A stretch of 64,000 nt of DNA, taken from assembly GCA_017427265.1 (NCBI GenBank), contig JAFRTG010000015.1, positions 1 through 64,000 on the forward strand. The letters are read 5' to 3'. The notes beneath the pieces were generated by a model. The model ran no database searches. It saw only the letters and a list, made by a program, of their open reading frames with translations, and was not told the origin of the DNA. Made by a program: the position numbers and the translations under genes. Shown one piece after another: positions 1,838 through 24,558 of this stretch. Position 1 is the first letter of the stretch, and each line of letters begins with the position of its first letter. The DNA is from Oscillospiraceae bacterium. GTDB lineage: Bacteria > Bacillota > Clostridia > Oscillospirales > Ruminococcaceae.

Positions 1838-4024
1838 TCAGATTTGTCTGCGGTACTGGCCGGGCGTCATGCCGGTGACCTTCTGAAACTGCCGCAGAAA
1901 ATAGTTGCAGTCCTCATAGCCGCACTGCTCTGCAATGCTGGAAATGCTCAGTACCGTTGTGGAGAGCAGATAGATTGCCTGAGAAATGCGTGCGGTGATG
2001 ACATCCTGATGGAAGCTGATCTGGAAGCAGTCGCGGTAGATCTGCCGGAAGTATCCGGCGCTGAATACGTATTTTTTGCAGACCGCATCCGCAGTGAGTG
2101 CGCCGCTGCGGTAGAGCTGATTGCGCACGGAGAACAGAATTCCCGCATGGGGCAGTTTTTTCTGGGATGCGAGAACCGCAGTCGATTCTGCGAGCTTTGA
2201 GTCCAGTATCTCGATGACCTTTTCCGGTGCGGTGTCCGGTTCCATCCGTGTCCAGCTGAGCAGCATGGATTCCATGCCGATGTTTTCGGTCAGTCCGGCC
2301 TGATGGATCATGACGGCACGCAGCTTTAAGCAGATGCGTTCGCAATGCTCATCGGTTTCGCAGGGGAATCCTGCGCAGACAAAGGTCTGCGTGCCGGTTC
2401 TGCCGCAGATATTATTCTGCGAACCGGTCGTGCGGAGTACCTCTGCTGTTTTCTGCAGCAGATCGCTCATTGTCGCCTGCGTTTCCGGACTGAGATCATT
2501 CTGCAGAACACCGATTTTGATTGCAATCGCATAGACCGGCGTCGGATCGGCGGAAATCTTTGCGGAGAGTGCGGATTCAAATCCGCGCTTGTTATAAAGC
2601 CCTGTCAGGGAGTCATGCTGTTCAGAAAGATTCTGGCATTGCAGCAGTGTCCGGATATCATTTTTCATGCACAGGAAGTTCAGACCGATCGAAATCGACT
2701 TCATCCAGTTCCGGAATACATCGTCATAGGCATCCGGTGCATGATATTCCAGCACATAGTAACCGAAAAAGTGCTTTTCAAAAAACAGCGGCAGATAATA
2801 ATGAACGCTGTTTTCCGGCGAATAGGCGTAAAGCGCGGAAAAATCGTAGCGGTCGCAGGTAATCGGCTTCTGCCAGTCATTCCACGGCATGACGCTGCGG
2901 CAGGTGAGGAGACCGGCCGGCGTATCGGAATCGGTGTCGTACCAGTTCTCAAACAGGCACAGGAACATATTCTGCACCCAGCGCACCCAGTAATTGTGCT
3001 TGCCGAGGACAGCGATGAATTCATCCAGACTGCTGCAAATTGTCAGCTGCTGTTCAAGCGTGCCGAGCACATTCCATTTTTCGTAGAGCTGATTGGTGCG
3101 CAGCGTTTCCAGTTCGGTGTTCAGCTGTTCAGGAGAAGGATGACAGCCGCAGCTCGCACCGGGAATCCAGATGCCGGCAGGCGGATGGAAATCGGGCTCC
3201 TCTCCTGCGATTTTCTTCCGCAGCATAGTGACTGCTGCCCTGCCCATTTCATTGCGTGCCCGCTGATACGTGCTGAGCAGGGGAGAGTGATAGATCCGTT
3301 CGTAGACATATTCATATCCGGTCACGGCGACATCCTCCGGGACGCGGATATTGTTTTTGAGAAAAACATCCAGCAGGCCGAATGCCATGTGGTCGCTTGT
3401 ACAGAAGATTGCCTCCGGAAGCGCAAGCTCGCCGCTGAGATAGCGCTTGGCCAGCCTTTCACCGGATGAGAACCAGAAATCGCCGTAGTGAACCCTTGCA
3501 GGATCAAACGGAACGCCGTGTTCCTCCAGTACCTCGCGGTATCCGGCGACCCGGTTTTCTGCGGCAGGATTGCCTTCAAAGCCCGTGAGAATGTCGATTT
3601 TGCGCATTCCGTGGTCATCCATCAGGTGCCGCATGATGAATTTCATATCCTCACGGTCGTCTGTATTCAGAAAGCTGACATTTCCGAAATCCAGTTCATC
3701 AATATAGATGCCGATTGCAACGACGGGAAGATCCTGCCGCCGGTGCAGCAGATTCCGCAGAATCTGCCGGATATTCTCATTGATAAAGGATTCTTCTATG
3801 AGAATGAGGCCGCGGAGCTGGGGCGAGAAAATCAGCTTGTAAATGTCATTTTCGAGCCGCAGCGCATAGTCATATTCATAGGGGTTATATACGTTTGATA
3901 AAACAACGACGGCCTCGCCGCAGGCCTGTGCCTCTTCGATTACGCCCTTGATGATCTGGCGCTGCTCCATGCTGTTTGCTTCGGCAGCGATGACGCCGAT
4001 GAACTGCTTTTCCTGATTTTGCAT
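1838..4024 (-). CDS. Hybrid regulator: LacI-type ligand-binding domain, degenerate GGDEF, AraC DNA-binding domain
   Basis: 728 aa cytoplasmic transcription regulator. Residues ~7-290 are a periplasmic-binding-protein fold of the LacI/GalR type (FCTSDHMAFGLLDVF, PEDVAVTGYE) but with no LacI helix-turn-helix in front. Residues ~300-465 are unassigned. Residues ~470-560 start with the GGDEF hallmark DSLTGLYNKRGF, yet the signature itself reads GRTGTQTF, so cyclase activity is not expected. Residues ~630-728 are an AraC/XylS two-HTH domain (ISSIAEQCGYEDCNYFLRQFQKVTGMTPGQYR). Its strong promoter is at 4049-4077 and the ribosome binding site is GGGGGGAG. It is the obvious candidate to bind a xylo-oligosaccharide and control the three adjacent xylanolytic genes; a putative operator copy lies at 4093-4120. 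Function is inferred from context. Confidence 0.88.
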   Translation of the reverse strand: MQNQEKQFIGVIAAEANSMEQRQIIKGVIEEAQACGEAVVVLSNVYNPYEYDYALRLENDIYKLIFSPQLRGLILIEESFINENIRQILRNLLHRRQDLPVVAIGIYIDELDFGNVSFLNTDDREDMKFIMRHLMDDHGMRKIDILTGFEGNPAAENRVAGYREVLEEHGVPFDPARVHYGDFWFSSGERLAKRYLSGELALPEAIFCTSDHMAFGLLDVFLKNNIRVPEDVAVTGYEYVYERIYHSPLLSTYQRARNEMGRAAVTMLRKKIAGEEPDFHPPAGIWIPGASCGCHPSPEQLNTELETLRTNQLYEKWNVLGTLEQQLTICSSLDEFIAVLGKHNYWVRWVQNMFLCLFENWYDTDSDTPAGLLTCRSVMPWNDWQKPITCDRYDFSALYAYSPENSVHYYLPLFFEKHFFGYYVLEYHAPDAYDDVFRNWMKSISIGLNFLCMKNDIRTLLQCQNLSEQHDSLTGLYNKRGFESALSAKISADPTPVYAIAIKIGVLQNDLSPETQATMSDLLQKTAEVLRTTGSQNNICGRTGTQTFVCAGFPCETDEHCERICLKLRAVMIHQAGLTENIGMESMLLSWTRMEPDTAPEKVIEILDSKLAESTAVLASQKKLPHAGILFSVRNQLYRSGALTADAVCKKYVFSAGYFRQIYRDCFQISFHQDVITARISQAIYLLSTTVLSISSIAEQCGYEDCNYFLRQFQKVTGMTPGQYRRQI

Positions 4025-4048: not shown

Positions 4049-4077
4049 ATTATAAACGGGAAGTTGGGATATGTCAA
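4049..4077 (-). promoter_or_regulatory. Promoter of AraC-type regulator
   Basis: On the minus strand: TTGACA (4072-4077), 17 bp spacer, TATAAT (4049-4054). Both boxes match the sigma-A consensus exactly. Confidence 0.85.
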
Positions 4078-4092
4078 GGGGGAATGCTGAAT

Positions 4093-4120
4093 TTTGTCTA
4101 TAATTACTGGATAATATACC
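4093..4120 (+). promoter_or_regulatory. Putative regulator operator, copy at regulator promoter
   Basis: Matches the 28 bp element at the GH43-CE1 promoter (11631-11658) at about 21 of 28 positions, beginning TTTGTCTAT and containing CTG and TAC at the same places. It lies about 15 bp upstream of the regulator's -35 box, in the opposite orientation, which would fit autoregulation. Confidence 0.5.
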
Positions 4121-4129
4121 GATAAAAGT

Positions 4130-4166
4130 AATCTCCGCGTAAAACCAATGGCTTTACACGGAGATT
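4130..4166 (-). terminator. Terminator of GH30-CE1 gene
   Basis: Inverted repeat AATCTCCG...CGGAGATT with inner pairing. On the minus strand it is followed by ACTTTTATC, and on the plus strand by TTTTTA. It separates the GH30 gene from the regulator promoter. Confidence 0.7.
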
Positions 4167-4202
4167 TTTATGGAAGATGTTTAAAATCTTGCGGTGCGTT
4201 TC

Positions 4203-7073
4203 TTATGCCTTAAAGACCGCTCTGACGAAGTTATAGATGTGTGCGCAGATGGAATCGTCGCCGTGGCTGCCGCCGTTGACAACATGCCAGATATGCGGAA
4301 CGCCGTTCTTGTCGAAGTTGTTGTGGTAACCCTGCGGTGTATCGAGACGGACAACATTGTCGTTCGTTCCGCCGGTGATGAACACGAGCGAAGGCGTTTC
4401 TTCCGGACTGTTCCACTTCCATGCACCGGATGCACCCGGAGCCGGGCAGATTGCGCCGACATAGCCGAACTTGTCGCCGTACTTCATGCCGATCTGGAGC
4501 GACTCTCTGCCGCCCATGGAGAAGCCTGTGACAGCGGTGTTCTCTCTGCCGGTTGCAACGCTGAAGTTCTGCTCAACCCACGGCATCAGGCTGTCTACGA
4601 TATCGTCCACGAAGTTGTCATAGCCTTCGTTGGAGCCGGGATCACCGAAATCTGTTGCATTGTTCATGGTCGGGTGTGTAAACACGAACGGAACGACAAC
4701 GATCATGTCTTCTGCCGCGCCGTCGGCCCATGCATTGCAGATGATCTCGCGTGTCGGGATCGGCGGATTGTTGCCTGTGAGGATCATGCGGTCCTCGTCC
4801 TCAAAGAAGCCGTGGAGCACATAAAGAACAGGATACTGCTTGCTCTCATCGTAATTGGGCGGGAGCATGACATTGACGTTCTTGTTCTTATTGGCCTTCT
4901 TGGAGCGGTACTGGTACTTCTTGACCTCGGAGTATGTCACGCCGTTTCTGCGGCTGGTGGAGCCGCTTGCTTCACGCTCGGAGAGCTGTTCCTTGACAAC
5001 CGGCGTATACTCTTCGATCGAACGCATCTGTCCGACCGGCTTCGGAGGCGGTTCCGGGATTGCGGTTTCCTGCTTGGTCAGATACTTGACGAACCATGCA
5101 ATATCAGAAGCATCAACGTCACCTTCCTGTGTGACGTCGGCGCCCTTCTTGGCACCTGCTGCCGCAAAGCCGCCGGTGATGATGCCACGCTTGGCCAGCG
5201 TGAGGTCGATTGCATCGGTGAAGCCGTCGCCGTTGACATCGGCGATCTGGTACTTGACCGGCTTCGGACCGCTGATGACGGTGCCTTCCGGTGCAATGAT
5301 GACTTCATCAATATAGAAGTCGTTCTTGCTGGAATCGGTTTCGACGTAGATTGCCATGTCGGTAGCGCCTGACGGAATCTCAAAGGACGGATTTGCAAGC
5401 TGTACCCAGTCTCCCTTGGTGACTGTCTCGGTGGCAATCTTCTTATAGCTGGTGGTGGAGCCGTCCTTGTACTCCAGCGTGAAGTGGAAGGTATCCGAAG
5501 CGGAGCCGGATGTATACTTGACCACTGTGCTGAAGCTGTAGGCCTTGCCCGGCTCGCAGAGGCTGGAGCTCAGCGCGTGCTTGGGGCCGTTCCATGCATC
5601 TCCTCTGTCGGTGCAGGCGAGCGATTTGCTGCCGGAATATGCTTCGGAAGCAGTCTTGATGGTTTCGCTGCTGCGTCCGGTGAAGTCCTCGTCGCCGTTT
5701 TCAAAGGTATAGTGTGCGAGGTAGCCGTTTTCGTCAACGGTCGGCGGAGCCGGCGGATCGTCGGACGGCGGCGGTGTTGTGCTGCCGTCGGAATTGACCA
5801 CGAATGTCGTGACCGAGTTGCCGGGCAGTGAAGCACTGAACGTACTGCCGGAGGCGTTGATCGCACCGAGTGCTTTGATATTCTCATTGCTGCTGGTACG
5901 GAACGACTTGACGCTGCTGATCGAGCTGTTCTTCAGGCTGAAGTTCTCACTGACGGAGCTGCTGCCCTTGTTGATCGCAACGATCGCAATGCTGTTGTCC
6001 TTGTTCTGATATGCAGAAATGAGCACGTTGCTGTCCGGAGATTCGGTTGCCGCGATGCGGTATGCGCCCGGACGTACCCACTTGGAATACTGCGCCATGC
6101 AGTAGCCGCGCTTGGAAATGGTACCGTCGTCCTTCATCGGACTGTACTTGCGGCGGATGAACCACCAGACATAGGCATTGATATTGCCGACGACCATGCC
6201 GTCATGGATATTCTCGGAAACCTTGAGCGCCTGCGGATAGGTATTTGCATCCGAAGTGGAATCCGGGACATAGACCTCAGTCATCCAGATGTCCTTGCCG
6301 CTGTTTTCGAGTGCCGGGAAGTTCATGTCGTTGCGGGAGGTGCCGTAAAAATGCGTACCGAACAGATCGGTGTTGGCCAGTGCCTTGGAGTTGTTCAGGA
6401 TCGCGTTGTAGAATTCCTTGCGGTACTGGAAGCTCTCCGGCGACATCATTTTGGCGTTGGTGCCTGCTGTGACGTCATCACCGTAATCTGCAAGGAAGCT
6501 GACCAGCTCGTTTGTGGACCATCCTGTCCAGTCCTGTGCGTAGTCGGGCTCATTCTGCACGGAGACAGAATACAGGTTGATGCCTTCGCCTTCCATATAC
6601 TTTATATAATCGTTCAGATGCTTTGCATAGGCGGCGTAGTTCCGGCTCGGCAGATGATACTTTGCGCCGCTTCCGGATTCACGGATGCTTGCGGGCGGAT
6701 ACCACGGAGATGCGAAAACGGTTGCACCCATTTCCTGTGCAGCCTTGGCGGTAGGAACTGCCTGCTTCCATGCGCTGCTGTCATCACTGATGTATGTGCG
6801 CAGGATGGTCAGGCCGAGCTCATCGTCCCCGTTGCCGAACGCCTTCTGGATTTGTGCGGCAGACATATCCGCTGTTGTGCCGGACGGAAGGTTGATGGCC
6901 TGCCATTCCGGGAGGTTGATGCCGCCGAAGCCCTTGATCTCCTGATACTTTGTTCCCGGATCAACTGTACATGTTGCCGCATAGGCAGTTGACGCGGGGA
7001 GCATGGAAGTTACGGAGAAGAGCATACAGCCGCTGAGCAGTGCGGACACGGTACGCCGCAGTTGCTTTTTCAT
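4203..7073 (-). CDS. Cellulosomal xylanase/esterase: GH30 - CBM22 - dockerin - CE1
   Basis: 956 aa secreted bifunctional enzyme. The start at 7073 is chosen because AGAGGG lies 7 bp upstream and a signal peptide follows (about residues 1-31, ending AYA). Residues ~33-430 are a GH30 glucuronoxylanase-type domain with acid/base E175 (QNEPDY) and nucleophile E266 (WMTEVY). After a Pro/Thr linker come CBM22 (~449-600), a type I dockerin (~608-668, Ca-binding DVNGDGFTDAIDL and DVTQEGDVDASDI) and a CE1 feruloyl/acetyl esterase (~690-956) with S852 (GFSMGG), D905 and H937 as probable triad. It should cleave the xylan backbone and release ester side groups while docked on a cellulosome scaffoldin. 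It is divergent from the GH10 gene and shares its regulatory element. Confidence 0.93.
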   Translation of the reverse strand: MKKQLRRTVSALLSGCMLFSVTSMLPASTAYAATCTVDPGTKYQEIKGFGGINLPEWQAINLPSGTTADMSAAQIQKAFGNGDDELGLTILRTYISDDSSAWKQAVPTAKAAQEMGATVFASPWYPPASIRESGSGAKYHLPSRNYAAYAKHLNDYIKYMEGEGINLYSVSVQNEPDYAQDWTGWSTNELVSFLADYGDDVTAGTNAKMMSPESFQYRKEFYNAILNNSKALANTDLFGTHFYGTSRNDMNFPALENSGKDIWMTEVYVPDSTSDANTYPQALKVSENIHDGMVVGNINAYVWWFIRRKYSPMKDDGTISKRGYCMAQYSKWVRPGAYRIAATESPDSNVLISAYQNKDNSIAIVAINKGSSSVSENFSLKNSSISSVKSFRTSSNENIKALGAINASGSTFSASLPGNSVTTFVVNSDGSTTPPPSDDPPAPPTVDENGYLAHYTFENGDEDFTGRSSETIKTASEAYSGSKSLACTDRGDAWNGPKHALSSSLCEPGKAYSFSTVVKYTSGSASDTFHFTLEYKDGSTTSYKKIATETVTKGDWVQLANPSFEIPSGATDMAIYVETDSSKNDFYIDEVIIAPEGTVISGPKPVKYQIADVNGDGFTDAIDLTLAKRGIITGGFAAAGAKKGADVTQEGDVDASDIAWFVKYLTKQETAIPEPPPKPVGQMRSIEEYTPVVKEQLSEREASGSTSRRNGVTYSEVKKYQYRSKKANKNKNVNVMLPPNYDESKQYPVLYVLHGFFEDEDRMILTGNNPPIPTREIICNAWADGAAEDMIVVVPFVFTHPTMNNATDFGDPGSNEGYDNFVDDIVDSLMPWVEQNFSVATGRENTAVTGFSMGGRESLQIGMKYGDKFGYVGAICPAPGASGAWKWNSPEETPSLVFITGGTNDNVVRLDTPQGYHNNFDKNGVPHIWHVVNGGSHGDDSICAHIYNFVRAVFKA

Positions 7074-7172
7074 ACATATCCCTCTTTTCCCTCGTAGAAT
7101 AATAAAATGTGTATACATATTGGACACCGGAATTGCCTGAACCGTAATTCCCCATCGTACATATACAATTAT

Positions 7173-7230
7173 ATTATACAGGATATGTAAACATTTCTCA
7201 ATACACAATATGCAGATTTAACTGGACGAA
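7173..7230 (-). promoter_or_regulatory. GH30-CE1 promoter with putative AraC-type operator
   Basis: Minus strand, reading in: 29 bp element (7202-7230) with half-sites CGTCCAG and TGTGTAT 21 bp apart, then TTGAGA (-35, 7196-7201), 17 bp spacer, TATAAT (-10, 7173-7178). The element matches those in front of the GH10 and GH43-CE1 genes and abuts the -35 box. Confidence 0.7.
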
Positions 7231-7387
7231 ATGAAGGCGAATCCTGAACTAATTTGTAATAAACAGACAAGTTTTTGAGAATCTTGCGGAAGTTGTACCG
7301 CTCAACCTTTGCTTTTGTCCGTATCAAAGTAACCAAAAATTGCTGATTTGTATATGCAATATGGAGAAATTGCGCTGTATTCTTCGC
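7231..7387. other. Divergent intergenic core between GH30 and GH10 promoters
   Basis: Non-coding, AT-rich spacer between the two back-to-back operators. No gene or clear hairpin is seen. The whole intergenic region between the two start codons (7074-7628) holds only regulatory sequence. Confidence 0.6.
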
Positions 7388-7444
7388 TTTGTCCATATAA
7401 TCTGCAAAATGTACATTGAAAATCAGACTGATATCGGATAAGAT
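7388..7444 (+). promoter_or_regulatory. GH10-GH43 promoter with putative AraC-type operator
   Basis: A 28 bp element (7388-7415) with direct half-sites TGTCCAT and TGTACAT 20 bp apart is followed by TTGAAA (7416-7421), 17 bp spacer and TAAGAT (7439-7444). The leader to the ATG is then about 180 nt. A weaker second promoter, TTGACA (7559-7564)/17 bp/TTTATT (7582-7587), lies closer to the gene. Confidence 0.7.
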
Positions 7445-7628
7445 AAAAACAGATATAAATATTGCATTTATATCAGCTTGTGCAGACAAGAACGGACATG
7501 CAGCAGGATCATCCGTCCGCCCCCTTCAGGATGTATGATTCTGCCGCCTGTACCGGACTTGACATGTACAGTATCCGTCATTTTATTTTTCATGTGAGAT
7601 CGTTTGGATCGCTATGGGGGAATTTATT

Positions 7629-10600
7629 ATGAAATGGAAACGCTTTTCAGCGGTCTTGACCGCTGCGGTATGCACAGCTTCCATGATGACTGTCATGCCG
7701 GTTACGCTGGCGGAGGCGGCAACGCTTGTCAGCAATGAATTCGAGGTCAACTACGACGGCTGGTACTCGAACTCCGATTACGCCACGCTCAGCGCTGTGG
7801 CAGGAATCGGTGCCGGCGGCTCCCGCGGTATGCTGCTCTCCGGCAGAACAACACCGCAGGACGGTGCAAGCTCCGCCAAGGGCTTCTATCTTGCGGGCGG
7901 CATCAAATATGACTATTCCGTACAGGTTTACAGTGAGACCGCAGAAACCTTCCGCCTTTCCCTTCTGACGAAGGATATTGACAGCGGTGAGGAAACGCGC
8001 AAGGAGCTCGCTGTGAAAAAAGTACAGCCGGGGCAGTGGACAACCATCACTGCAACGGATACGGCTGCTGAGAACAGCGGCGATTTTACCCTGACAATTA
8101 CAACGGACAGCACCAATGATTTCCGTTTTGATAACGTGAAGGTCACGTCGGAAGGCGAAAATGCCATTATGGCAGAGGCAGCAGGCGGCGGCCTGAAGGA
8201 TGAGTTCGCAAACTACTTCCGTATCGGCAACATTCTCAACGGCACGACCATCAATAACAATTCGGTTAAGAACATTCTGCTCAAGGACTGCAATGCAATC
8301 GAGTGCGAAAATGAAACCAAGCCGTGGGATACGCTCGTCAAGAACGGTTCAACGGACGACAATGTCAATGTTTCGCTCCGCAGCTGCGCAGCAATCTGTG
8401 ATTTCTGTGTTGAGCACAATCTCGCATTCCGCGGTCATACGATGGTCTGGCATTCCCAGACCCGTGAGTGGTTCTTCATCCAGAATTTTTCCGATTCCGG
8501 CAACTATGTCGATAAGAACACGATGACCAAGCGTATGGACAGCTACATCAAGAATATGTTTGCTGCATACGAGCGTGAGTATCCGTCGCTGAACCTGTAT
8601 GCATATGATGTCTGCAACGAGTGCATCAGCGACGATGCAGGTGCCTGCAACAACGGTGACGGCGCCAGAAGTCCGGGCTATGACCACGGCAATTCTCCGT
8701 GGGTCAAGATCTACGGCAACAACAGCTTTATCGAGCTGGCGTTCAAATCTGCAAGAGAGCACGCTCCGGCAAACTGCAAGCTGTTCTATAACGATTATAA
8801 TGAGCACGCTTCCTATAAGCGTGACTGCATCTACAGAACCTGTAAAGACCTTTATGAAAAGGGCTATCTCGACGGTGTCGGAATGCAGTCTCATGTCACC
8901 GCAAACGCCAATGACTGGGCGGGCGGCACCAAGGCGTATCTCGAAGCAATGGATAAGTACCTGAGCATCGGCTGTGACGTACAGATCACAGAGCTCGATG
9001 TCAGTGTGAAGGATTCCAGCGAGAGCGCACAGGTTACCAAGTATAAGGAAATCTTCAAGCACGCAATGGAATGGAACGCATCCCATCCGCGTCCGTCCGG
9101 CCGCGTAACGCTGGTTCAGATCTGGGGACCGGATGACGGCCACTCCTGGCTGGATTCAGGCTCTAACGGTCTGCTTTATAACAGCAGCTATCAGGAAAAG
9201 TCTGCTTACAAGGGACTGAAGGAACTCGTTCCGGAGAATGAGTGGGGCGACGGCGATGCCTATGTCGATGAAGGCAGCACACCGCCGAAGGCTCTGGAAG
9301 TGGACGATGACGGCTACTGGTTCCACTATACGTTTGAAAACGGCTCTGAAAACTTCAGCGGCCGTGCAAGTGAAACAGTTGCACAGACCGGCACCGCTTC
9401 CTATGCCGGCGACAAATCCCTGCTCGTTTCCAGCCGCAACGATTCGTGGAACGGCGCAACGCATTCCCTGAGCACCAACCCGTTCAAGCCGGGCGAGGAG
9501 TTCAGCTTCAGTGTTGCGGTCATGTATGACGACGGTCCGGAGACCAGTAAATTCCACCTCACCCTGTCCTACGGCAGCGGCGATGATACCGTGTATACCA
9601 AGATCGCATCCGAGGATGTTACAAAGGGACAGTGGACACAGCTTTCCAACACCAACTTCAAGATTCCGTCGGGCGCTTCCAACATGCAGATCTATGTTGA
9701 GACAGAAGGCGACGACGAGCAGGATTTCTACATCGACGAAATGATCGGCGCACCGGCCGGCACGGTGATTACCGGCCCGAAGGCGGTTCCGGCAATCCTC
9801 GGCGATGTCACCTGCGACGGTGAGATCAATGCGGCTGACCTTTCCGCATTGAAGGCGGCAGTCCGCAACGACGGCAAATTTGCTTCTAACAAGGCAAAGA
9901 AGAATGCTGACGTCAACCAGAGCAAGAAGGTCAATGAGAAGGACGTTCAGATGCTTCTCGAATATCTGCTCAAGAAGAGAACTGAGTTTGAGCAGGGCGA
10001 AATCGAAGTCGAAGAAATTGACTTCACAAAGATGGCTGGTGCATTCTCCGGCGTGAAGTATGCAACCAGCACCAAGAAGGACAACGAAAACAACCCGTGC
10101 ACAACGCAGCGTTTCGGCGCTGACCCGGGCTGGATGGTTTATGACGGAAGACTGTATCTCTACACCACGAATGATGCGTATGAGTATAACGGTGCCGGCC
10201 AGATGCAGGAGAACTCCTACAACTCCGGTACGATCAACTGCATCTCCTCTGCTGACCTCGTCAACTGGACCGACCACGGTGCAATCCCGGTTGCTGCACA
10301 GAATAACAGAACCCAGAACGGTGCTGCCAAGTGGGCAAACCGTGCATGGGCACCGGATGCACTCCACAAGAAGATCGGCGGCAAGGAAAAGTTCTTCCTG
10401 TACTTCGCAAACAGCGGCTCCGGCGTCGGCGTTCTGACTGCTGACAGCCCGACAGGCCCGTGGACCGATCCGATCGGTACAGAACTCGTTTCCAAGTCCA
10501 ATACGCCGAACATGAGTGACGTTGTCTGGATGTTCGACCCGGGCGTTTACTATGACGAAGAGACCGACGAAGCCTATCTGTTCATGGGCGGCGGCGTTGA

Positions 10601-11492
10601 CGGCAAGCCGAAGGACTATCCGAAGACCGGACGCTGCATGAAGCTGAACGGTGACATGGTGTCCATCGACAAGAACAGTGTTACGGTTCTGGAGAATCCG
10701 TATCTGTTCGAGGATTCCAGCCTCATTAAGATCGACGGCTGGTGGTATTACTCCTACTGCTCGAACTTTGATGTTCCGGGCGGCACCAACATCAACGGCG
10801 TTACCTTCAACAGCGGCGAAATCCTTGCGATGAGATCCAAGAGCCCGCTCGGCCCGTGGACAAAGAGCCAGCTCCTGTGCAGAGTTCTTCCGGGAACCGG
10901 CAACGGCGGCATGAATCTGGACGGCGGCGGAAACAACCACCACTCCATCATCGAGTTCAAGGGTGAGTACTACGTTGCTTACCACGCACGTACCACTGAG
11001 CGCCGTCTGGGCGTCAACAACGGCAACGGCCTCAACTACCGCTCCACGCATATCAACAAGGCATCCTATAATCCTTCCAACGGACAGATCACCTGTAAGG
11101 GCGATATGGCCGGTTGCAGCCAGCTCGAATATCTGAATCCGTACCAGACTGTCCAGGCTGAGACCATGGCAAACCAGGGCGGCATCCAGATCAAGGGCCT
11201 CGGCGATACAGTCGTTACCGATATCCAGAAGGGCGACTGGATCAAGGTCAAGGGCGTTGATTTCAAGAACGGCTGCACAACCTTCGCAGCACGCGCTTCT
11301 TCCAAGAACGGCGCTGTCATCAAGGTGACCAAGGGCTCTCCGGACGGTGAAGCATTTGCTTACATCGAGGTTCCGGCCGGCGGTTCCATGACTGACATTG
11401 CACCGGTGAAGTGCAACAACATCGAAGGCGTGACCGATATCTGCTTCTCCTTCAGTGGCGAGCTTGAGTTCGACAGCTGGTCTTTCACCTGA
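7629..11492 (+). CDS. Cellulosomal xylanase/arabinofuranosidase: CBM22 - GH10 - CBM22 - dockerin - GH43 - CBM6
   Basis: 1287 aa secreted enzyme. GGGGGA lies 7 bp before the ATG at 7629 and a signal peptide follows (residues ~1-31). Modules in order: CBM22 (~33-175); GH10 endo-xylanase (~188-535) with acid/base E331 (DVCNEC; most GH10 have DVVNE) and nucleophile E455 (ITELD); second CBM22 (~560-712); dockerin (~722-785); GH43 (~800-1140) of arabinofuranosidase/arabinoxylan-hydrolase type with base D832 (GADPGWM); CBM6-like domain to the C-terminus. The enzyme should cut the xylan backbone and strip arabinose. A terminator follows at 11564-11610. The dockerin second repeat (DVNQSKKVNEKDV) is less canonical than the first. 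Confidence 0.93.
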   Translation: MKWKRFSAVLTAAVCTASMMTVMPVTLAEAATLVSNEFEVNYDGWYSNSDYATLSAVAGIGAGGSRGMLLSGRTTPQDGASSAKGFYLAGGIKYDYSVQVYSETAETFRLSLLTKDIDSGEETRKELAVKKVQPGQWTTITATDTAAENSGDFTLTITTDSTNDFRFDNVKVTSEGENAIMAEAAGGGLKDEFANYFRIGNILNGTTINNNSVKNILLKDCNAIECENETKPWDTLVKNGSTDDNVNVSLRSCAAICDFCVEHNLAFRGHTMVWHSQTREWFFIQNFSDSGNYVDKNTMTKRMDSYIKNMFAAYEREYPSLNLYAYDVCNECISDDAGACNNGDGARSPGYDHGNSPWVKIYGNNSFIELAFKSAREHAPANCKLFYNDYNEHASYKRDCIYRTCKDLYEKGYLDGVGMQSHVTANANDWAGGTKAYLEAMDKYLSIGCDVQITELDVSVKDSSESAQVTKYKEIFKHAMEWNASHPRPSGRVTLVQIWGPDDGHSWLDSGSNGLLYNSSYQEKSAYKGLKELVPENEWGDGDAYVDEGSTPPKALEVDDDGYWFHYTFENGSENFSGRASETVAQTGTASYAGDKSLLVSSRNDSWNGATHSLSTNPFKPGEEFSFSVAVMYDDGPETSKFHLTLSYGSGDDTVYTKIASEDVTKGQWTQLSNTNFKIPSGASNMQIYVETEGDDEQDFYIDEMIGAPAGTVITGPKAVPAILGDVTCDGEINAADLSALKAAVRNDGKFASNKAKKNADVNQSKKVNEKDVQMLLEYLLKKRTEFEQGEIEVEEIDFTKMAGAFSGVKYATSTKKDNENNPCTTQRFGADPGWMVYDGRLYLYTTNDAYEYNGAGQMQENSYNSGTINCISSADLVNWTDHGAIPVAAQNNRTQNGAAKWANRAWAPDALHKKIGGKEKFFLYFANSGSGVGVLTADSPTGPWTDPIGTELVSKSNTPNMSDVVWMFDPGVYYDEETDEAYLFMGGGVDGKPKDYPKTGRCMKLNGDMVSIDKNSVTVLENPYLFEDSSLIKIDGWWYYSYCSNFDVPGGTNINGVTFNSGEILAMRSKSPLGPWTKSQLLCRVLPGTGNGGMNLDGGGNNHHSIIEFKGEYYVAYHARTTERRLGVNNGNGLNYRSTHINKASYNPSNGQITCKGDMAGCSQLEYLNPYQTVQAETMANQGGIQIKGLGDTVVTDIQKGDWIKVKGVDFKNGCTTFAARASSKNGAVIKVTKGSPDGEAFAYIEVPAGGSMTDIAPVKCNNIEGVTDICFSFSGELEFDSWSFT

Positions 11493-11563
11493 TTGGTTCA
11501 GACAACTTTGGAAAATTAGCGAAAAACAAAACCCTCTCTTAAGCTAAAATTCCTCCCCCAAAT

Positions 11564-11610
11564 GGCTGTGTGATGCCGCATTTACGCGGTGTCACACAGC
11601 CGTTTTATTT
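11564..11610 (+). terminator. Terminator after GH10-GH43 gene
   Basis: Long stem GGCTGTGTGA...TCACACAGCC with inner CCGC/GCGG pairing and a short loop, followed by GTTTTATTT. Confidence 0.85.
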
Positions 11611-11630
11611 GTACGTACAACACCATGCAC

Positions 11631-11687
11631 TTTGTCTATCTATTCTGCAAAATGTACATTGACATTATACGTATTTTCCTATATGAT
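11631..11687 (+). promoter_or_regulatory. GH43-CE1 promoter with putative AraC-type operator
   Basis: A 28 bp element (11631-11658; half-sites TGTCTAT and TGTACAT, 20 bp apart) abuts TTGACA (11659-11664), then a 17 bp spacer and TATGAT (11682-11687). The stretch TCTGCAAAATGTACATTGA is identical to that at the GH10 promoter. Confidence 0.72.
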
Positions 11688-11757: not shown

Positions 11758-14700
11758 ATGAAATACAAAAAACTGTTCAGCGCTGCGACTGCGCTGCTCT
11801 GCTGTGCCGGGATGATCGGGATGCTCCCGCATGTTCCGGCGACGATGCAGGCTTCGGCGGCAGCAACGATTGCCAATCCGTTCATCTGGTCAGATGTACC
11901 GGATGACGACATCATCCGCGTCGGGGATACCTATTACATGGTGCATACGACGATGTTTTTTGCACCGGGTGCGCCGATCATGAAGTCCAAGGATCTGTTC
12001 TCGTGGGAGATGTGCAACTATGTGTACGATACCTATGCGGACGGTCCGAAGCAGACGCTCTCGAACGGCGAGCATGATTACGCGCACGGTCAGTGGGCAA
12101 CCAGTCTGCGCTATCACGACGGCAAGTATTATGTGTTCTTCGGCAGCTACGGTACCGGCAAATCGTATATCTATCAGACGACGGATATCGAAAACGGACC
12201 GTGGACGCGCTCCGAGATCAACGGCATGTACCACGATGCCTCCATGCTGTTTGACGATGACGGCAGAAAATATCTCGTTTACGGCTCCGGCGAGTTCCAC
12301 ATCAAGGAATTCAACGACGACATGACCGGTTTCAAGTCCGGCGGTCTTGATAAAACGCTGTTCAAGACGAATCTTTCCGGCCTTTCCGGTGAGGGCTCGC
12401 ACATCCACAAAATCGGCGATTACTACTACATTTTCATCATCGCATGGCCGAACGGGCATCCGCGAACCGAATACTGCTACCGCAGCAAGTCGCTGACAGG
12501 AAGCTGGGAAGGAAAGGTCGTGCTCGAATCCGGCCTCGGCACCTACGGCAGCGGCGTCGCACAGGGCGGCATTGTGAATACGCCGGACGGCAAGTGGTAT
12601 GCGCTGCTGTTCCAGGATCACGGCGCGGTCGGCAGAGTGCCTGTGCTCGTGCCGATGACATGGCAGAACGACTGGCCGGTGCTCGGTGAGGGCGGCAAGG
12701 CGCCTGTTCAGCTGACGGTTCCGGACGGCTACAAGGGCACGCAGATGGCCAAGGACGACGACTTCTCCTATGAGGAGAACAAGCTCGACCTGCTCTGGCA
12801 GTGGAACCACAATCCGGATAATACCGCGTGGTCTGTGACCGAACGTCCGGGCTATCTCCGCCTGAAGAACAAATCCACGGCCAGTGAACTGCTGCACGCG
12901 CGCAATACGCTGACAATGCGCACGGAAGGGCCGTCGTGTTCCAGTGTCGTCAAGCTCGACACCTCCGGCATGAAGCCCGGTGACTACGCAGGCCTTTCCG
13001 CATTCCAGTTCAAGTACGGCAATGTCGGCGCATATGTCGCGGATGACGGCAGCCGCAAGGTCTATATGGCAGTCAACGGCGGCGATAAGGTCGAAACCAG
13101 CAGCAACAAGATCGTTGAGCAGGCGAATATGAACGGCGACGAGGTTTATCTCAAGGCGGAATTCAACTTCAATACCGTTGACAGCAGCTTCAATGTTTCC
13201 AACAACATTGACAAGGCGAATTTCTACTATTCCTTCGACGGCAGCAAGTGGACGAAGATCGGTGAGACGCTGAGTATGCCTTACGATCTGACGCTGTTTA
13301 CCGGCTATCGCAGCGGACTTTACAGCTATGCGACGAAAACAACGGGCGGCTGCGCAGACTTCGACTACTTTGATTACGAGCGCGCAGAGTGGAATGTGCC
13401 GCAGGTGATCGAAGTGGATCCGGACGGCTACTGGCTCCACTGCACATTTGAAAGCGGCGTGGACGGCTTCCGTGCACGCGGCGGCGAGACCGTCAGCACC
13501 TCCTCCGACGCGAAGTATGCCGGCAGCAAGGCGCTGTATGTGACCGGCCGTGACGCATCCTGGCAGGCGCCGAGCCATTCGCTGAATGCGGCAGTGTTCG
13601 AGCCGGGCAAGGCTTACAGCTTCAGCGCGAATGCCATGTACAATTCCGGTTCGGATACCGACAAATTCCACTTCACATTCCAGTATACCGGAACCGACAA
13701 TGAGGTGCACTATACCAAAATTGCGACCGAGAATGCCATGAAGGGCGAATGGGTGCAGCTCTCGAACCAATCGTATACGATTCCGGAAGATGCAGCCGGT
13801 GAGATGTATATTTACGTTGAGACGGAAAGCTCCAAGGTCGATTTCTATGTCGATGAGGTGATTGCAGCGCCGGACGGCACGGAGATCAAGGGTGCGGGCA
13901 AATCGAAGTTCGTGCTCGGCGATGTCAACTCCGACGGCGTCATCAATGCAGTGGATCTGTCCCTTGCAAAGCGCGGTGTCATCACAGAAAAATTTGCAGG
14001 CTCGCTTGCACAGAAGGCTGCGGACGTTGACTGCAATGATGTTGTCCGCGCAGCTGATGTCGTCTGGTTTGCAAAGTATGTCACCGGACAGACGAAGGAA
14101 TATCCGCCGAAGGGCGAGCGCGAAACGCCGCCGCCGAGCGAATATCCGTATCCGGAAAACCTGACCTATAAGGAAGCGCCCGGCAATTATTTCACGCAGC
14201 CGGCGAATCACGGCACAGTGAATAAGGAGGTCTATTCGGGCATCAACGGCACCAAGACGATGTATGTCTATACACCCTACGGCTACAACGAGAACACCAA
14301 GTACAATGTGTTCTATCTGATGCACGGCGGCGGTGAGAATGAGAACACCTGCTTCAACAATCCGGATATTGACATTGATATCATGCTCGATAACATGATC
14401 GCAAACGGCGATATTGAGCCGATGATCGTTGTGACCCCGACCTTCAACAACTGCCCGGACGGCGCAGGCGATGTCTGGGACGAGATCCGCCGTACGATTG
14501 TGCCGTATGTCGAGAGCAAGTACTCGACGTATGCGGAATCGACCTCGCTGGAGGATCTGCAAAAATCGCGCTTCCACCGTGCATACGGCGGCTTTTCGAT
14601 GGGCGCAGGCTCCACATGGAACTGCTTCATCAACAACCTCGACATCATCGCGTATTACATGCCGCTGTCGGGTCACTGCTGGGGCGGTGCCGGTGCAGTC

Positions 14701-14958
14701 ACGCAGGCGATTGACAAGTTCGGCTTCCGGAAGAATGAATATTTCGTGCTCGCAGCGACCGGTACGGAAGATCTGGCTTATGACAACATGGTTCCGCTGA
14801 TTAACGAGCTGAAAAACGACGCGCACTTCACCTATACAAGCGATTTCTCCAAGGGCAATTTCTACTTCCTCGCAGCGCAGGGCAATGTCCACTGGTGGCC
14901 GCAGGTTCGCCACTATATCTATGACGGACTCCCGCTGTTCTTCCACGAGGGCACGTAA
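11758..14958 (+). CDS. Cellulosomal beta-xylosidase/esterase: GH43 - beta-sandwich - CBM22 - dockerin - CE1
   Basis: 1066 aa secreted enzyme. The start at 11758 has GGGGGA 8 bp upstream and a signal peptide (residues ~1-35). GH43 spans ~36-320 (base D51 in DDDIIRVG, pKa modulator D160 in YHDAS, acid E212 in GEGSH). It is followed by the concanavalin-like C-terminal sandwich typical of GH43 beta-xylosidases (~333-545), then CBM22 (~549-710), dockerin (~718-780) and a CE1 esterase (~800-1066) with S947 (GFSMGA) and H1045. It probably removes xylose or arabinose from oligosaccharides and hydrolyses ester decorations. Its CBM22-dockerin core closely resembles those of the two neighbouring enzymes. 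A hairpin follows at 14972-14999. Confidence 0.93.
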   Translation: MKYKKLFSAATALLCCAGMIGMLPHVPATMQASAAATIANPFIWSDVPDDDIIRVGDTYYMVHTTMFFAPGAPIMKSKDLFSWEMCNYVYDTYADGPKQTLSNGEHDYAHGQWATSLRYHDGKYYVFFGSYGTGKSYIYQTTDIENGPWTRSEINGMYHDASMLFDDDGRKYLVYGSGEFHIKEFNDDMTGFKSGGLDKTLFKTNLSGLSGEGSHIHKIGDYYYIFIIAWPNGHPRTEYCYRSKSLTGSWEGKVVLESGLGTYGSGVAQGGIVNTPDGKWYALLFQDHGAVGRVPVLVPMTWQNDWPVLGEGGKAPVQLTVPDGYKGTQMAKDDDFSYEENKLDLLWQWNHNPDNTAWSVTERPGYLRLKNKSTASELLHARNTLTMRTEGPSCSSVVKLDTSGMKPGDYAGLSAFQFKYGNVGAYVADDGSRKVYMAVNGGDKVETSSNKIVEQANMNGDEVYLKAEFNFNTVDSSFNVSNNIDKANFYYSFDGSKWTKIGETLSMPYDLTLFTGYRSGLYSYATKTTGGCADFDYFDYERAEWNVPQVIEVDPDGYWLHCTFESGVDGFRARGGETVSTSSDAKYAGSKALYVTGRDASWQAPSHSLNAAVFEPGKAYSFSANAMYNSGSDTDKFHFTFQYTGTDNEVHYTKIATENAMKGEWVQLSNQSYTIPEDAAGEMYIYVETESSKVDFYVDEVIAAPDGTEIKGAGKSKFVLGDVNSDGVINAVDLSLAKRGVITEKFAGSLAQKAADVDCNDVVRAADVVWFAKYVTGQTKEYPPKGERETPPPSEYPYPENLTYKEAPGNYFTQPANHGTVNKEVYSGINGTKTMYVYTPYGYNENTKYNVFYLMHGGGENENTCFNNPDIDIDIMLDNMIANGDIEPMIVVTPTFNNCPDGAGDVWDEIRRTIVPYVESKYSTYAESTSLEDLQKSRFHRAYGGFSMGAGSTWNCFINNLDIIAYYMPLSGHCWGGAGAVTQAIDKFGFRKNEYFVLAATGTEDLAYDNMVPLINELKNDAHFTYTSDFSKGNFYFLAAQGNVHWWPQVRHYIYDGLPLFFHEGT

Positions 14959-14971
14959 TTCTGTATGATGA

Positions 14972-14999
14972 GAGCGGCAGTGCATTTGCGCTGCCGCTC
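14972..14999 (+). terminator. Hairpin after GH43-CE1 gene
   Basis: Stem GAGCGGCAG / CTGCCGCTC with a 10 nt loop, followed by only a short T run (ATTTGC). A plausible terminator 13 bp after the stop. Confidence 0.6.
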
Positions 15000-15007
15000 A
15001 TTTGCAC

Positions 15008-15036
15008 TTGACAAACAGGCCATAATGTGCTATGCT
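15008..15036 (+). promoter_or_regulatory. Promoter of dockerin protease operon
   Basis: TTGACA (15008-15013), 17 bp spacer, TATGCT (15031-15036). Confidence 0.65.
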
Positions 15037-15088
15037 ATTTAATGAAAGGGTGTACCTAATTGGATTTGAGGAAAGGGGCGTGATTCCA

Positions 15089-15142
15089 ATGTACTATCAT
15101 ATTCTCAGTCAGTCCGTTAATTTTATCAATATGAAAGGATGA
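15089..15142 (+). CDS. Possible 17-codon leader ORF upstream of protease gene
   Basis: ATG at 15089 with AGGAAAGGGG about 10 bp upstream opens a 17-residue peptide (MYYHILSQSVNFINMKG) that stops 4 bp before the protease ATG and spans its ribosome binding site. Such placement suits translational coupling or a leader peptide. It may equally be chance. Confidence 0.3.
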   Translation: MYYHILSQSVNFINMKG

Positions 15143-15146
15143 TAGT

Positions 15147-16367
15147 ATGAGAAAGGTTTATAAGTTTGCCGCAGCGTTTTTGACGCTTGTACTGATTTTG
15201 CCGTTCGGAAATATCCCTGTTTTCGCTTACGATGACTGTGACGTCAATCATGACGGATATGTTGATATATCCGATGCAGTTGCAGTGAACAAATATCTTG
15301 CCGGTGTTTATTATATCTCCGCTTACAACAGATTTGACACAAACAAAAGTCTGACTGTCGATTATTCGGATGCTGATAAAATACTGGCTCAGATTGTCAG
15401 TCATTCATACAGTGCGCAATTCTGGGATAAGATGAATAATTGTGCGGTGTCGTTTCCGACAGTTTCGGGCTTTACGCCTGACCCCTATGCATCTTCAACA
15501 GACTCACGTACCTACAGAAGATATTCCTATGTGACCCATCAGGAATTGTCTTCCTATTCATTAACACCGACTGCTGCTTCTTTCAACTCTAATTCAGTGC
15601 CCTCAGAGCCGAGAGAGATTGTCGGAGATGATGACAGACTTCCGTCACTCGGAGCAGAAAATACCGGGATTGTTCGTTTGCAAAACATAGGAACAGGTTT
15701 TATTGTAGGAGATCATGTTATTGCAACGGCTGCGCATAATGTATATACCCGTTATTTTTATGGTGGCTATTTTAATAGTGCTACTCCGACTATTCATCCA
15801 TATAATGCGAACGGAACTATAGACAGTTCAACAACGTTTATTCCGATTGAGGTTCACGTTCCTTATAATTATGGATACTTGGATGATTTTGAACCTTATG
15901 ATTATGCACTGATTACTGTATCGGACGATTTGTCAGATTACATGCATTTTACATTAGGAACAACCTATAATGTTTCTTCTGCGAATTATTCCAATATTCC
16001 GTTATATGTATTAGGACCTGTTTTATCGAGCGAAGAATTCAGTATAAACAATGAAGATGACTTATATTATGGTCAAGGTTATATTGTCAATGAAAACATT
16101 GCTGCATCTGATGAAATTTTATATTATGACTGCGATACACTACATGGAGACAGCGGTGCTCCGGTTTATACTATTACAAAAGTGACGTCCGGCGAACAAA
16201 CGTATTACTACTATACTGTTGTCGCAATCCATATTTGCTGTAATCAAACTCAAAGTGAAATGAATCCTTCGAATACAGGGCCGAATCTATGGAATGGCGG
16301 TTCAAGAATAACCAAATATCAGCTTCAGTTTTTTGATGAAGACTCAAATCCTAATATTTCATACTAA
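15147..16367 (+). CDS. Secreted trypsin-like (S1/glutamyl endopeptidase type) protease with N-terminal dockerin
   Basis: 406 aa. Signal peptide ~1-27, then directly a dockerin-like pair of calcium loops (DVNHDGYVDISDA and FDTNKSLTVDYSDA, ~31-83). Residues ~150-390 form a chymotrypsin-fold protease with H197 (ATAAH), D252 (YDYALI) and S336 (HGDSGAP), all three catalytic residues present. Dockerins usually sit at the C-terminus or between modules; N-terminal placement is less common. The gene is clearly more AT-rich than the xylanase genes, hinting at separate ancestry. The ribosome binding site is GAAAGGA. It is followed after 20 bp by another dockerin gene. The likely role is proteolysis or processing on the cellulosome or cell surface; the substrate is unknown. 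Confidence 0.87.
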   Translation: MRKVYKFAAAFLTLVLILPFGNIPVFAYDDCDVNHDGYVDISDAVAVNKYLAGVYYISAYNRFDTNKSLTVDYSDADKILAQIVSHSYSAQFWDKMNNCAVSFPTVSGFTPDPYASSTDSRTYRRYSYVTHQELSSYSLTPTAASFNSNSVPSEPREIVGDDDRLPSLGAENTGIVRLQNIGTGFIVGDHVIATAAHNVYTRYFYGGYFNSATPTIHPYNANGTIDSSTTFIPIEVHVPYNYGYLDDFEPYDYALITVSDDLSDYMHFTLGTTYNVSSANYSNIPLYVLGPVLSSEEFSINNEDDLYYGQGYIVNENIAASDEILYYDCDTLHGDSGAPVYTITKVTSGEQTYYYYTVVAIHICCNQTQSEMNPSNTGPNLWNGGSRITKYQLQFFDEDSNPNISY

Positions 16368-23827: not shown

Positions 23828-24472
23828 TTATTTTTTTCTGAATAATCCGCCGAACAATCCCTTCTTTCCGGCAGCCTTTTCCTCTGCTTCCTCCTCGTCG
23901 ATCTCATCGGCTGCAGCAAGCAGACTGTTGACGCGGTTCCGGAGCAGGTTGGCTTCATTGGCACCGTCCTGCGGCGCAGAAACGGACGTCAGCCTGAATT
24001 CCTTGACCTCCGCCTTCGGAATCCCCTGTACAGACTGCTGTACAGACTGCTGCGGCGGATACTGTGCGGAATGCGCTGTCTGCGGATGACGGAGCTTTTC
24101 GATAAACTCCGTAATCGGCACAGCACGGTCATGCATCATGATCTCACACCGAATGTTATCCGGATGGATCGAAAGGAAGCTCCGCAGGCACTGATCGCAG
24201 GGGAGCAGCGGCATACCGTTTGCGACGGAAATCAGCAGCACCTGCCGGACAGCGGCTTCGCCTGCCTTCTGCATATTGCGGATTGCTTCGGTTTCCGCAT
24301 GGGTATTGCGAAGCATGCCGTTGATGGTTGCCCGTCTGTTGCATCCGGAATAGAGTGTATCGGAGCCGGAGCAGATCACACAGACGGTGTCGTCCGGCAT
24401 CAGTTGTTCTCCGCTCTGCATTCGCTTTGCAGCAATTTCTCTTGCATGCTGAAATATCGCATCATAATTCAC
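23828..24472 (-). CDS. Cytidine-deaminase-fold protein with disordered acidic tail
   Basis: 214 aa from a GTG at 24472, which has AAAGGTGG 8 bp upstream (an in-frame GTG at 24484 overlaps that sequence). Residues ~1-125 show the zinc deaminase pattern: HAETEAI (zinc His, catalytic Glu) and PCDQC (two zinc Cys). A glutamine-rich linker follows, then a tail with LRNRVNSLLAAADE and a run of acidic residues, ending in GLFGGLFRKK. The R-x-R-x-N-S-x-L motif recurs near the C-terminus of the GGYPQQ-repeat protein (26212-26247). First gene of a two-gene operon with the dCache sensor. Substrate (nucleoside, nucleotide or other) cannot be told. Confidence 0.75.
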   Translation of the reverse strand: MNYDAIFQHAREIAAKRMQSGEQLMPDDTVCVICSGSDTLYSGCNRRATINGMLRNTHAETEAIRNMQKAGEAAVRQVLLISVANGMPLLPCDQCLRSFLSIHPDNIRCEIMMHDRAVPITEFIEKLRHPQTAHSAQYPPQQSVQQSVQGIPKAEVKEFRLTSVSAPQDGANEANLLRNRVNSLLAAADEIDEEEAEEKAAGKKGLFGGLFRKK

Positions 24473-24558
24473 ACTTTTAACCACCTTTCTGCGGTATTGG
24501 TATGCTAAATTTTATAATATTCACTTCAAAAAGCCATTTTACATATCCCTGTTTTATG

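Follow-up and report, generated by a model that had tools for sequence, protein, structure and literature searches.

A conserved direct-repeat operator of a small xylan regulon and its predicted LacI/AraC-type regulator in an Oscillospiraceae bacterium

Gene and promoter organization of the locus

The stretch of 64,000 nucleotides that was analyzed, termed here the window, lies within contig C12 (72 kb) of an Oscillospiraceae genome of 3.82 Mb (G000). Three genes for dockerin-bearing enzymes were assigned by Pfam matches. Gene A (4203..7073, minus strand) specifies a secreted protein of 956 amino acids with a GH30-type domain, a CBM4_9 module, a dockerin and an esterase. Gene B (7614..11492, plus strand) encodes a 1292-residue protein with the order GH10, CBM4_9, dockerin, GH43 and CBM6, and gene C (11758..14958, plus strand; 1066 residues) combines GH43, GH43_C2, CBM4_9 and dockerin modules with an esterase-like segment for which the Pfam match is weak. 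Genes A and B are divergent and have one intergenic region in common. Terminator-like hairpins, of a kind no commoner than in shuffles in the same sequence scan, are located between genes B and C (11560..11605, plus strand) and between gene A and the regulator promoter (4130..4166, minus strand). A TTGACA-17-TATGCT promoter with a TG extension also was noted at 14960-15147, ahead of a dockerin/trypsin-like gene at 15147; as the latter is preceded by its own promoter, it is probably a unit separate from gene C.

The adjacent regulator gene (1838..4024, minus strand) encodes P0001, a protein of 728 amino acids that was examined with Pfam and by sequence searches of solved structures and whose database relatives derive from metagenome assemblies labeled Ruminococcus, Oscillospiraceae or Clostridia. 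The N-terminus comprises a LacI-type ligand-binding domain at residues ~10-291 (Peripla_BP_3, 3.4e-23). The C-terminus is an AraC-type domain with two helix-turn-helices, as in the AraC/XylS family (HTH_18, 5.3e-16 over residues 650-727, above the curated cut-off), and the second helix-turn-helix region shows no variation among P0001 and six relatives. The middle part includes a GGDEF-like stretch (469-574) that scores below the Pfam cut-off and in which no GGDEF signature was present in these seven sequences. The predicted structure of P0001, built with seven sequences, was too poor for use (mean pLDDT 52.7). No XylR model was found for P0001 among 25 of 43 NCBIfam matches listed, and no relevant description of a LacI/AraC/GGDEF hybrid was recovered from the open-licence PMC literature.

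Each enzyme gene is preceded by a promoter with a 17-bp spacer: TTGAGA and TATAAT for gene A (7173..7201, minus strand), TTGAAA and TAAGAT for gene B (7416..7444, plus strand), and TTGACA and TATGAT for gene C (11659..11687, plus strand). The preliminary description had placed a shared element directly against the -35 box of all three, with the -10 box 17 bp further in every case, and the elements were located where it put them. It had assigned the three promoters to xylanase genes; the promoters hold, but gene C, with its GH43 and esterase-like modules, is not strictly a xylanase gene.

Structure and occurrence of the operator and the genes behind it

The element is a 36-bp direct repeat of a 16-bp unit, TCTGCA-N3-TGTCCAT. 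The pattern TCTGCA, three A/T bases, TGT, C or A, and CAT occurs twice, with unit starts 20 bp apart. In operator B (7381..7416, plus strand; R1 E 2.2e-9, and the alignment) units 1 and 2 occupy 7381-7396 and 7401-7416, and in operator C (11624..11659, plus strand; R1 E 1.5e-7, and the alignment) they occupy 11624-11639 and 11644-11659. Operator A (7201..7237, minus strand; units 7237-7222 and 7216-7201; R1 E 2.2e-6, and alignment A2) has a linker of five bases, with one extra base between the units that sets their starts 21 bp apart. Alignment A2 comprises 46 chosen sites from 20 genomes and omits the near-duplicates G002 and G029, the site G020_4 and some model sites. It yielded the consensus TCTGCATTTTGTCCAT-NTAA-TCTGCAAAATGTACAT, also written TCTGCATTTTGTCCAT-NTAA-TCTGCAAAATGTACATTG, in which the two units have the same base at 12 of 16 positions. 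Unit 2 and the -35 box overlap by one base, the final base of the unit being the leading T of the box. Information is concentrated in the repeat, -35 and -10 columns, with little in the flanks and spacer, and a TG ahead of the -10 box also is visible. As the alignment shows conservation of the upstream CTKCA box, which model R1 does not include, the earlier three-box reading (TTTGTCCAT / TCTGCA / TGTACA) was dropped in favor of two 16-bp units. With a repeat unit of this length there are four boxes instead of three, the first having been missed; the 20-21 bp period of the half-sites proposed previously is correct, but their definition took in only half of each unit. The 46 aligned sites share with AraC/XylS operators a direct repeat whose two units are spaced by about two turns. 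Between operators A and B (7307-7322, plus strand) there is a further sequence resembling a unit, CTTTGCTTTTGTCCGT, which is possibly an auxiliary half-site. In G006, a second, weaker operator-like repeat was observed 62 bp upstream of the main site of the GH10 gene (L057 at about 8838-8876, plus strand).

Profile R1 was constructed by sequence only from 15 sites, operators A, B and C included, with the -10 box excluded. Profile R2 is longer, includes the -10 box and was derived from sites that R1 had detected. As only the best first-look candidates were scored in each genome (150, or 47 under the stricter filters of the family-wide search), weak sites may be missed. A profile search of the whole genome, which the preliminary description had proposed, revealed four strong R1 sites in G000, namely operators A, B and C and a further operator, D, at C34:148016 (E 2.5e-5), whereas the next match had an E value of 0.497. 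Operator D is situated 87 bp ahead of the gene for a 1666-residue GH2-type enzyme; the surrounding region (L105, C34 144-156 kb) contains several dockerin matches. R2 detected the same four sites at E<1e-9 and no further place in G000 among the matches listed, down to 7.8e-4. Four promoters in the genome agree with the small regulon that had been predicted. Across 30 congeneric genomes, R1 produced 51 places at E<1e-3, 36 of which were outside the model, while a reversed control profile yielded none at this threshold in the same genomes (one at 0.008 and one at 0.66). Chance similarity is rejected by this control: the operator sites are more than chance and the observation is confirmed. In the family-wide search of 148 genomes, 146 of them outside the genus, a single place outside the genus reached E<1e-3; it is positioned ~80 bp ahead of a P0001 homolog and is inverted.

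The position of the -10 box was assessed among the 60 R1 matches at E≤0.006 in the 30 genomes, which comprised the 15 model sites and 45 others. Three of the latter (G005:C22:88269, G016:C9:140373 and G020:C13:28403) were not entered in the count, and 12 of the 15 model sites were shown in the examination. Outside the model, TANNNT was present at exactly a 17-bp spacer in 37 of 42 sites, whereas any other offset accounted for at most 6 of 42. Since the -10 box is absent from R1, this positional constancy constitutes independent support. Among the exceptions, G014_1 and G028_1 result from an anchoring error of the script and likewise possess a 17-bp spacer, G012_2 and G020_2 have a spacer of 18 bp, and G020_4 lies inside a reading frame. 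The -35 boxes of the targets matched the consensus at a mean of 4.1 of 6 positions, with TTGACA in only 4 of 46, gene C being one. The operator adjoins the TTG of the -35 box at fixed spacing, which is the arrangement of class II activation. The sequence evidence supports both the tandem AraC-type operator and the class II-like position at the targets.

The proteins encoded downstream of the sites numbered 69, of which 63 are carbohydrate-active. After 17 near-identical entries were dropped, 46 of 52 were carbohydrate-active and 41 of 52 contained dockerins, with 28 of the 52 classed by BLAST likeness to members that were scanned singly. Four of the 69 stem from R2 matches weaker than 1e-6 (G013_3, G028_4, G001_3 and G017_1; 2.8e-6 to 3.4e-5). 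Outside the 69 are model sites of other genomes, the match at G016:C9:140365, R2 matches below 1e-6 at G028:C496, G026:C20 and G004:C150:20639, matches lacking a fitting frame (L132 and the forward match of L219) and one with a 101-residue frame only (L208). The 46 carbohydrate-active proteins consist of GH43 (12), GH30 (10), GH10-GH43 (7), GH2 (6), GH141-like (4), CBM4_9 with esterase (3), GH97 (2), GH11 (1) and GH5 (1) types. The six misfits are two MATE transporters, a deaminase-like protein, a P0001 homolog and two proteins with no Pfam family, one of which is behind a match inside a reading frame. Equal occurrence at unrelated promoters, which had been named as an outcome that would count against the regulon, was looked for in this set and was not observed. 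The set looks like one for arabinoxylan and glucuronoxylan, and the presence of GH2 and GH97 suggests side-chain or other hemicellulose functions. The MATE transporter genes of the related species G020 and G012 (L212 and L223) each have a site-like element with a 17-bp promoter, and the deaminase-like gene of G004 (L109) has an R1 match of E 6.6e-5; a frame of the window (23828-24484) matches the same Pfam family as this deaminase-like gene.

Enzymes of the same family share sequence and neighbors, and the likeness of the sites might in principle reflect recently duplicated promoters with no shared regulator. This explanation is extremely improbable: the sites occur ahead of the unrelated families GH10, GH30, GH2, GH97, GH11 and GH5, and conservation is confined largely to the repeat, -35 and -10 columns, in contrast to the flanks and spacer. 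A site was detected at one of four GH10 genes in G000; none was detected at the other three in the R1 and R2 profile searches. Three genes with a site were found among at least 129 dockerin matches (the best 150 of 242 candidates having been scored). With at least 129 dockerin matches, four GH10 genes and only four strong sites, a regulon of all xylan or all dockerin genes is rejected.

The regulator promoter and the association of sites with P0001

The regulator promoter (4049..4077, minus strand) has TTGACA and TATAAT boxes separated by 17 bp and matches the consensus at 12 of 12 positions. A further copy of the operator (4086..4121, plus strand), revealed by comparison with shuffles and orthologs, is inverted relative to the regulator and lies 8 bp upstream of its -35 TTGACA. 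This copy was not reported by the R1 search of G000. Its score of 18.9 exceeded 300 of 300 shuffles, and the regulator strand of the window gave 11.1, also above its shuffles; such shuffle tests are liberal, as the promoter of a distant paralog in G001 passes with a score of only -0.6. On the strand opposite the regulator, the 36-bp operator exceeded 300 of 300 shuffles in all 21 orthologs and outscored the same strand in each. The inverted operator ends 7-9 bp before the -35 box in 17 of 21 orthologs (exactly 8 bp in 15), whereas in G009, G010, G014 and G028 the best inverted match overlaps the -35 box. TTGACA is present in 20 of the 21 regulator promoters. In the window and in its three nearest relatives (G002, G006 and G015) the regulator strand scores lower, although likewise above its shuffles, and so two units facing each other are a possible alternative reading there.

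The preliminary description had included a weaker fourth copy at the regulator promoter. The copy is real and the site conserved, as the sequence evidence attests, but it is inverted relative to the promoter; its orientation rules it out as a target-like site for the regulator. The single class II-like scheme that was meant to embrace the regulator promoter does not stand, given the inverted site, the lack of -35 overlap in the window and the 12/12 promoter. Five relatives (G003, G012, G020, G021 and G029) have a divergent GH10-type gene for which the inverted site serves as operator, and so conservation alone is not proof of self-regulation. The window has no such divergent gene, yet the site is kept; the same applies to G008, whose neighboring gene also is of GH30 type. 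Self-regulation by P0001 is plausible on this sequence pattern, although it is not the only reason for an inverted site. The inverted site, with a match that extends over the -35 box in four genomes, slightly favors self-repression over activation.

Among more distant homologs of 31-40% identity, 13 of 14 of which are in other genera, eight have an operator that is significant against 500 base shuffles: six inverted (that of G048 with a weaker same-strand match too), one forward (G160) and one in both orientations (G069). No operator was found at the promoters of the other six in this test. Of seven non-ortholog homologs assessed with 300 shuffles, a clear operator was evident only in G024 (inverted) and G005 (forward), and the G011 homolog, at 47% identity, had none.

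With orthologs taken as proteins of 52% identity or more, a line that was drawn after the list was seen, sites were present in 21 of 21 genomes with an ortholog (R2, E<1e-8) and in two of nine lacking one (Fisher 1.8e-5, with ancestry ignored). With R1, the more strictly tested of the two profiles, at E<1e-3, sites were detected in 20 of 21 (G009 missing) and three of nine, respectively. Sites persist in G002 and G015 although in these genomes the enzyme cluster is separated from the regulator (by about 80 kb or by location on another contig). The genomes G018 and G025 have strong sites with no detected P0001 ortholog; as these assemblies are 77% and 75% complete, the gene possibly was lost to incompleteness. 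G001 has R2 sites (best 5.1e-7) but no ortholog, and G005 has an R1 site (9.7e-4) ahead of a homolog with 35% identity to P0001. The sites in G018, G025 and G001 may reflect either missing sequence or another regulator.

These latter cases bear on the alternative that the operator is real but that its main regulator is a paralog of P0001: 18 places in G000 match P0001, and a distant paralog (26-28% identity) recurs across the genus and shares a contig with some site-bearing genes in G001, G002 and G006. Nevertheless, the operator is conserved at the promoters of P0001 orthologs and of the eight further homologs, and the sites co-occur with P0001 orthologs. At the one distant paralog promoter examined, that of G001, the full-operator score of -0.6, although above its own shuffles, contrasts with a target median of 35.6, and the best unit score did not surpass shuffles (p 0.61). 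A paralog as the main regulator is improbable.

Proposed mechanism and relation to known systems

The element most probably is the operator of the adjacent P0001, which would activate the targets in class II-like fashion in response to a xylan-derived inducer and adjust its own level. In this scheme, which we infer from sequence patterns, two P0001 subunits would occupy one 16-bp direct repeat each, with the two helix-turn-helices of each AraC domain placed on the two boxes of one unit. The boxes of a unit would be about one helical turn apart, and all four would therefore face one side of the DNA. At the targets, where the downstream unit merges with a -35 box that is weak in most cases, the subunit on that unit would be placed to touch RNA polymerase. 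The LacI-type domain would bind the inducer, probably a xylan-derived oligosaccharide. The inverted operator beside the strong promoter of the regulator gene probably adjusts the regulator level, slightly more likely by repression. The weak -35 boxes of the targets, compared with TTGACA at the regulator, fit targets that depend on an activator and a regulator promoter that is active without one.

LacI-type sensors usually are parts of repressors, and an operator that touches the -35 box might occlude it; P0001 could instead repress the enzyme promoters until released by sugar. Furthermore, the regulators predicted in one computational study were overwhelmingly repressive according to a passage in a review, but the same passage states that the few activators were AraC-family proteins (PMC10766802). 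Moreover, the operator is upstream and shares only the first base of the -35 box, and the target -35 boxes mostly are weak, although that of gene C is the consensus. The AraC-type tandem sites upstream of promoters in Caldicellulosiruptor also were read as activator sites in the part of that study considered here (PMC8579813). Repression of the enzyme genes by P0001 is quite unlikely.

A more tentative extension of the activation scheme, and one that is rather doubtful, is that operator orientation sets the sign of regulation: a forward operator at a weak -35 box would activate the dockerin arabinoxylan enzymes, and an inverted operator at a consensus promoter would repress the gene of the regulator itself. 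If so, a single operator would serve one regulator of three parts, namely a sugar sensor, a degenerate GGDEF-like middle and an AraC domain, and regulators in other genera would have retained the arrangement even in the absence of a divergent target.

Among the matches listed from titles and abstract openings of open-licence PMC articles, none defined an operator or a regulator by which these dockerin-bearing bacteria control their xylan enzymes, and a text search of the review cited above returned no mention of Ruminococcus. With operator, regulator and regulon stated across 30 genomes, the control of fiber digestion becomes testable, and the operator/regulator pair is a candidate for an inducible promoter.

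The XylR protein of E. coli, an activator of xylose genes that binds to direct repeats, pairs a LacI-type ligand-binding domain with an AraC-type DNA-binding domain at the C-terminus. P0001 possesses the same pair of domains, and its residues 654-725 match E. coli XylR chains (PDB 4fe4 and 4fe7) with E about 1e-7. However, XylR-type proteins have two adjoining domains in about 390 residues (392 and 412 in these chains), whereas P0001, at 728 residues, has a long middle part with about 350 extra residues between the domains; strict XylR-type membership fails on architecture. The likely targets of P0001 also differ, being secreted dockerin enzymes. AraC at araBAD/araC in E. coli and XylS at Pm in Pseudomonas use two direct repeats of which the downstream one touches the -35 box, and the divergent regulator promoter of AraC adjoins the operator. 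The operators described here similarly comprise two direct repeats that meet the -35 box, with a divergent regulator promoter as for AraC in five relatives, but the sensor domain and operator sequence are unrelated.

In the available portions of the published accounts, the nearest functional analog found is XydR of the XydS/XydR pair in Clostridium (Ruminiclostridium) cellulolyticum, whose effector domain binds DNA upstream of dockerin hemicellulase genes and which controls a 14-gene cluster and one further gene (PMC3572039). Its targets have shared repeats near the -35 box for which a consensus site is not given in that portion. XydR resembles P0001 as an AraC-type regulator of dockerin hemicellulase genes and differs in being a two-component response regulator (PMC3572039). 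The AraC-family regulons of Caldicellulosiruptor bescii, as far as the corresponding text extends, likewise have tandem-repeat sites upstream of mapped promoters, which were taken as activator sites; the regulators and targets are different, and the likeness is one of arrangement (PMC8579813). Overall, by analogy with these systems, P0001 and its operator would work like an AraC/XylS class II system equipped with an XylR-like hybrid sensor. The xylan regulon is genuine, conserved and small, with details that are new and of a kind that is known.
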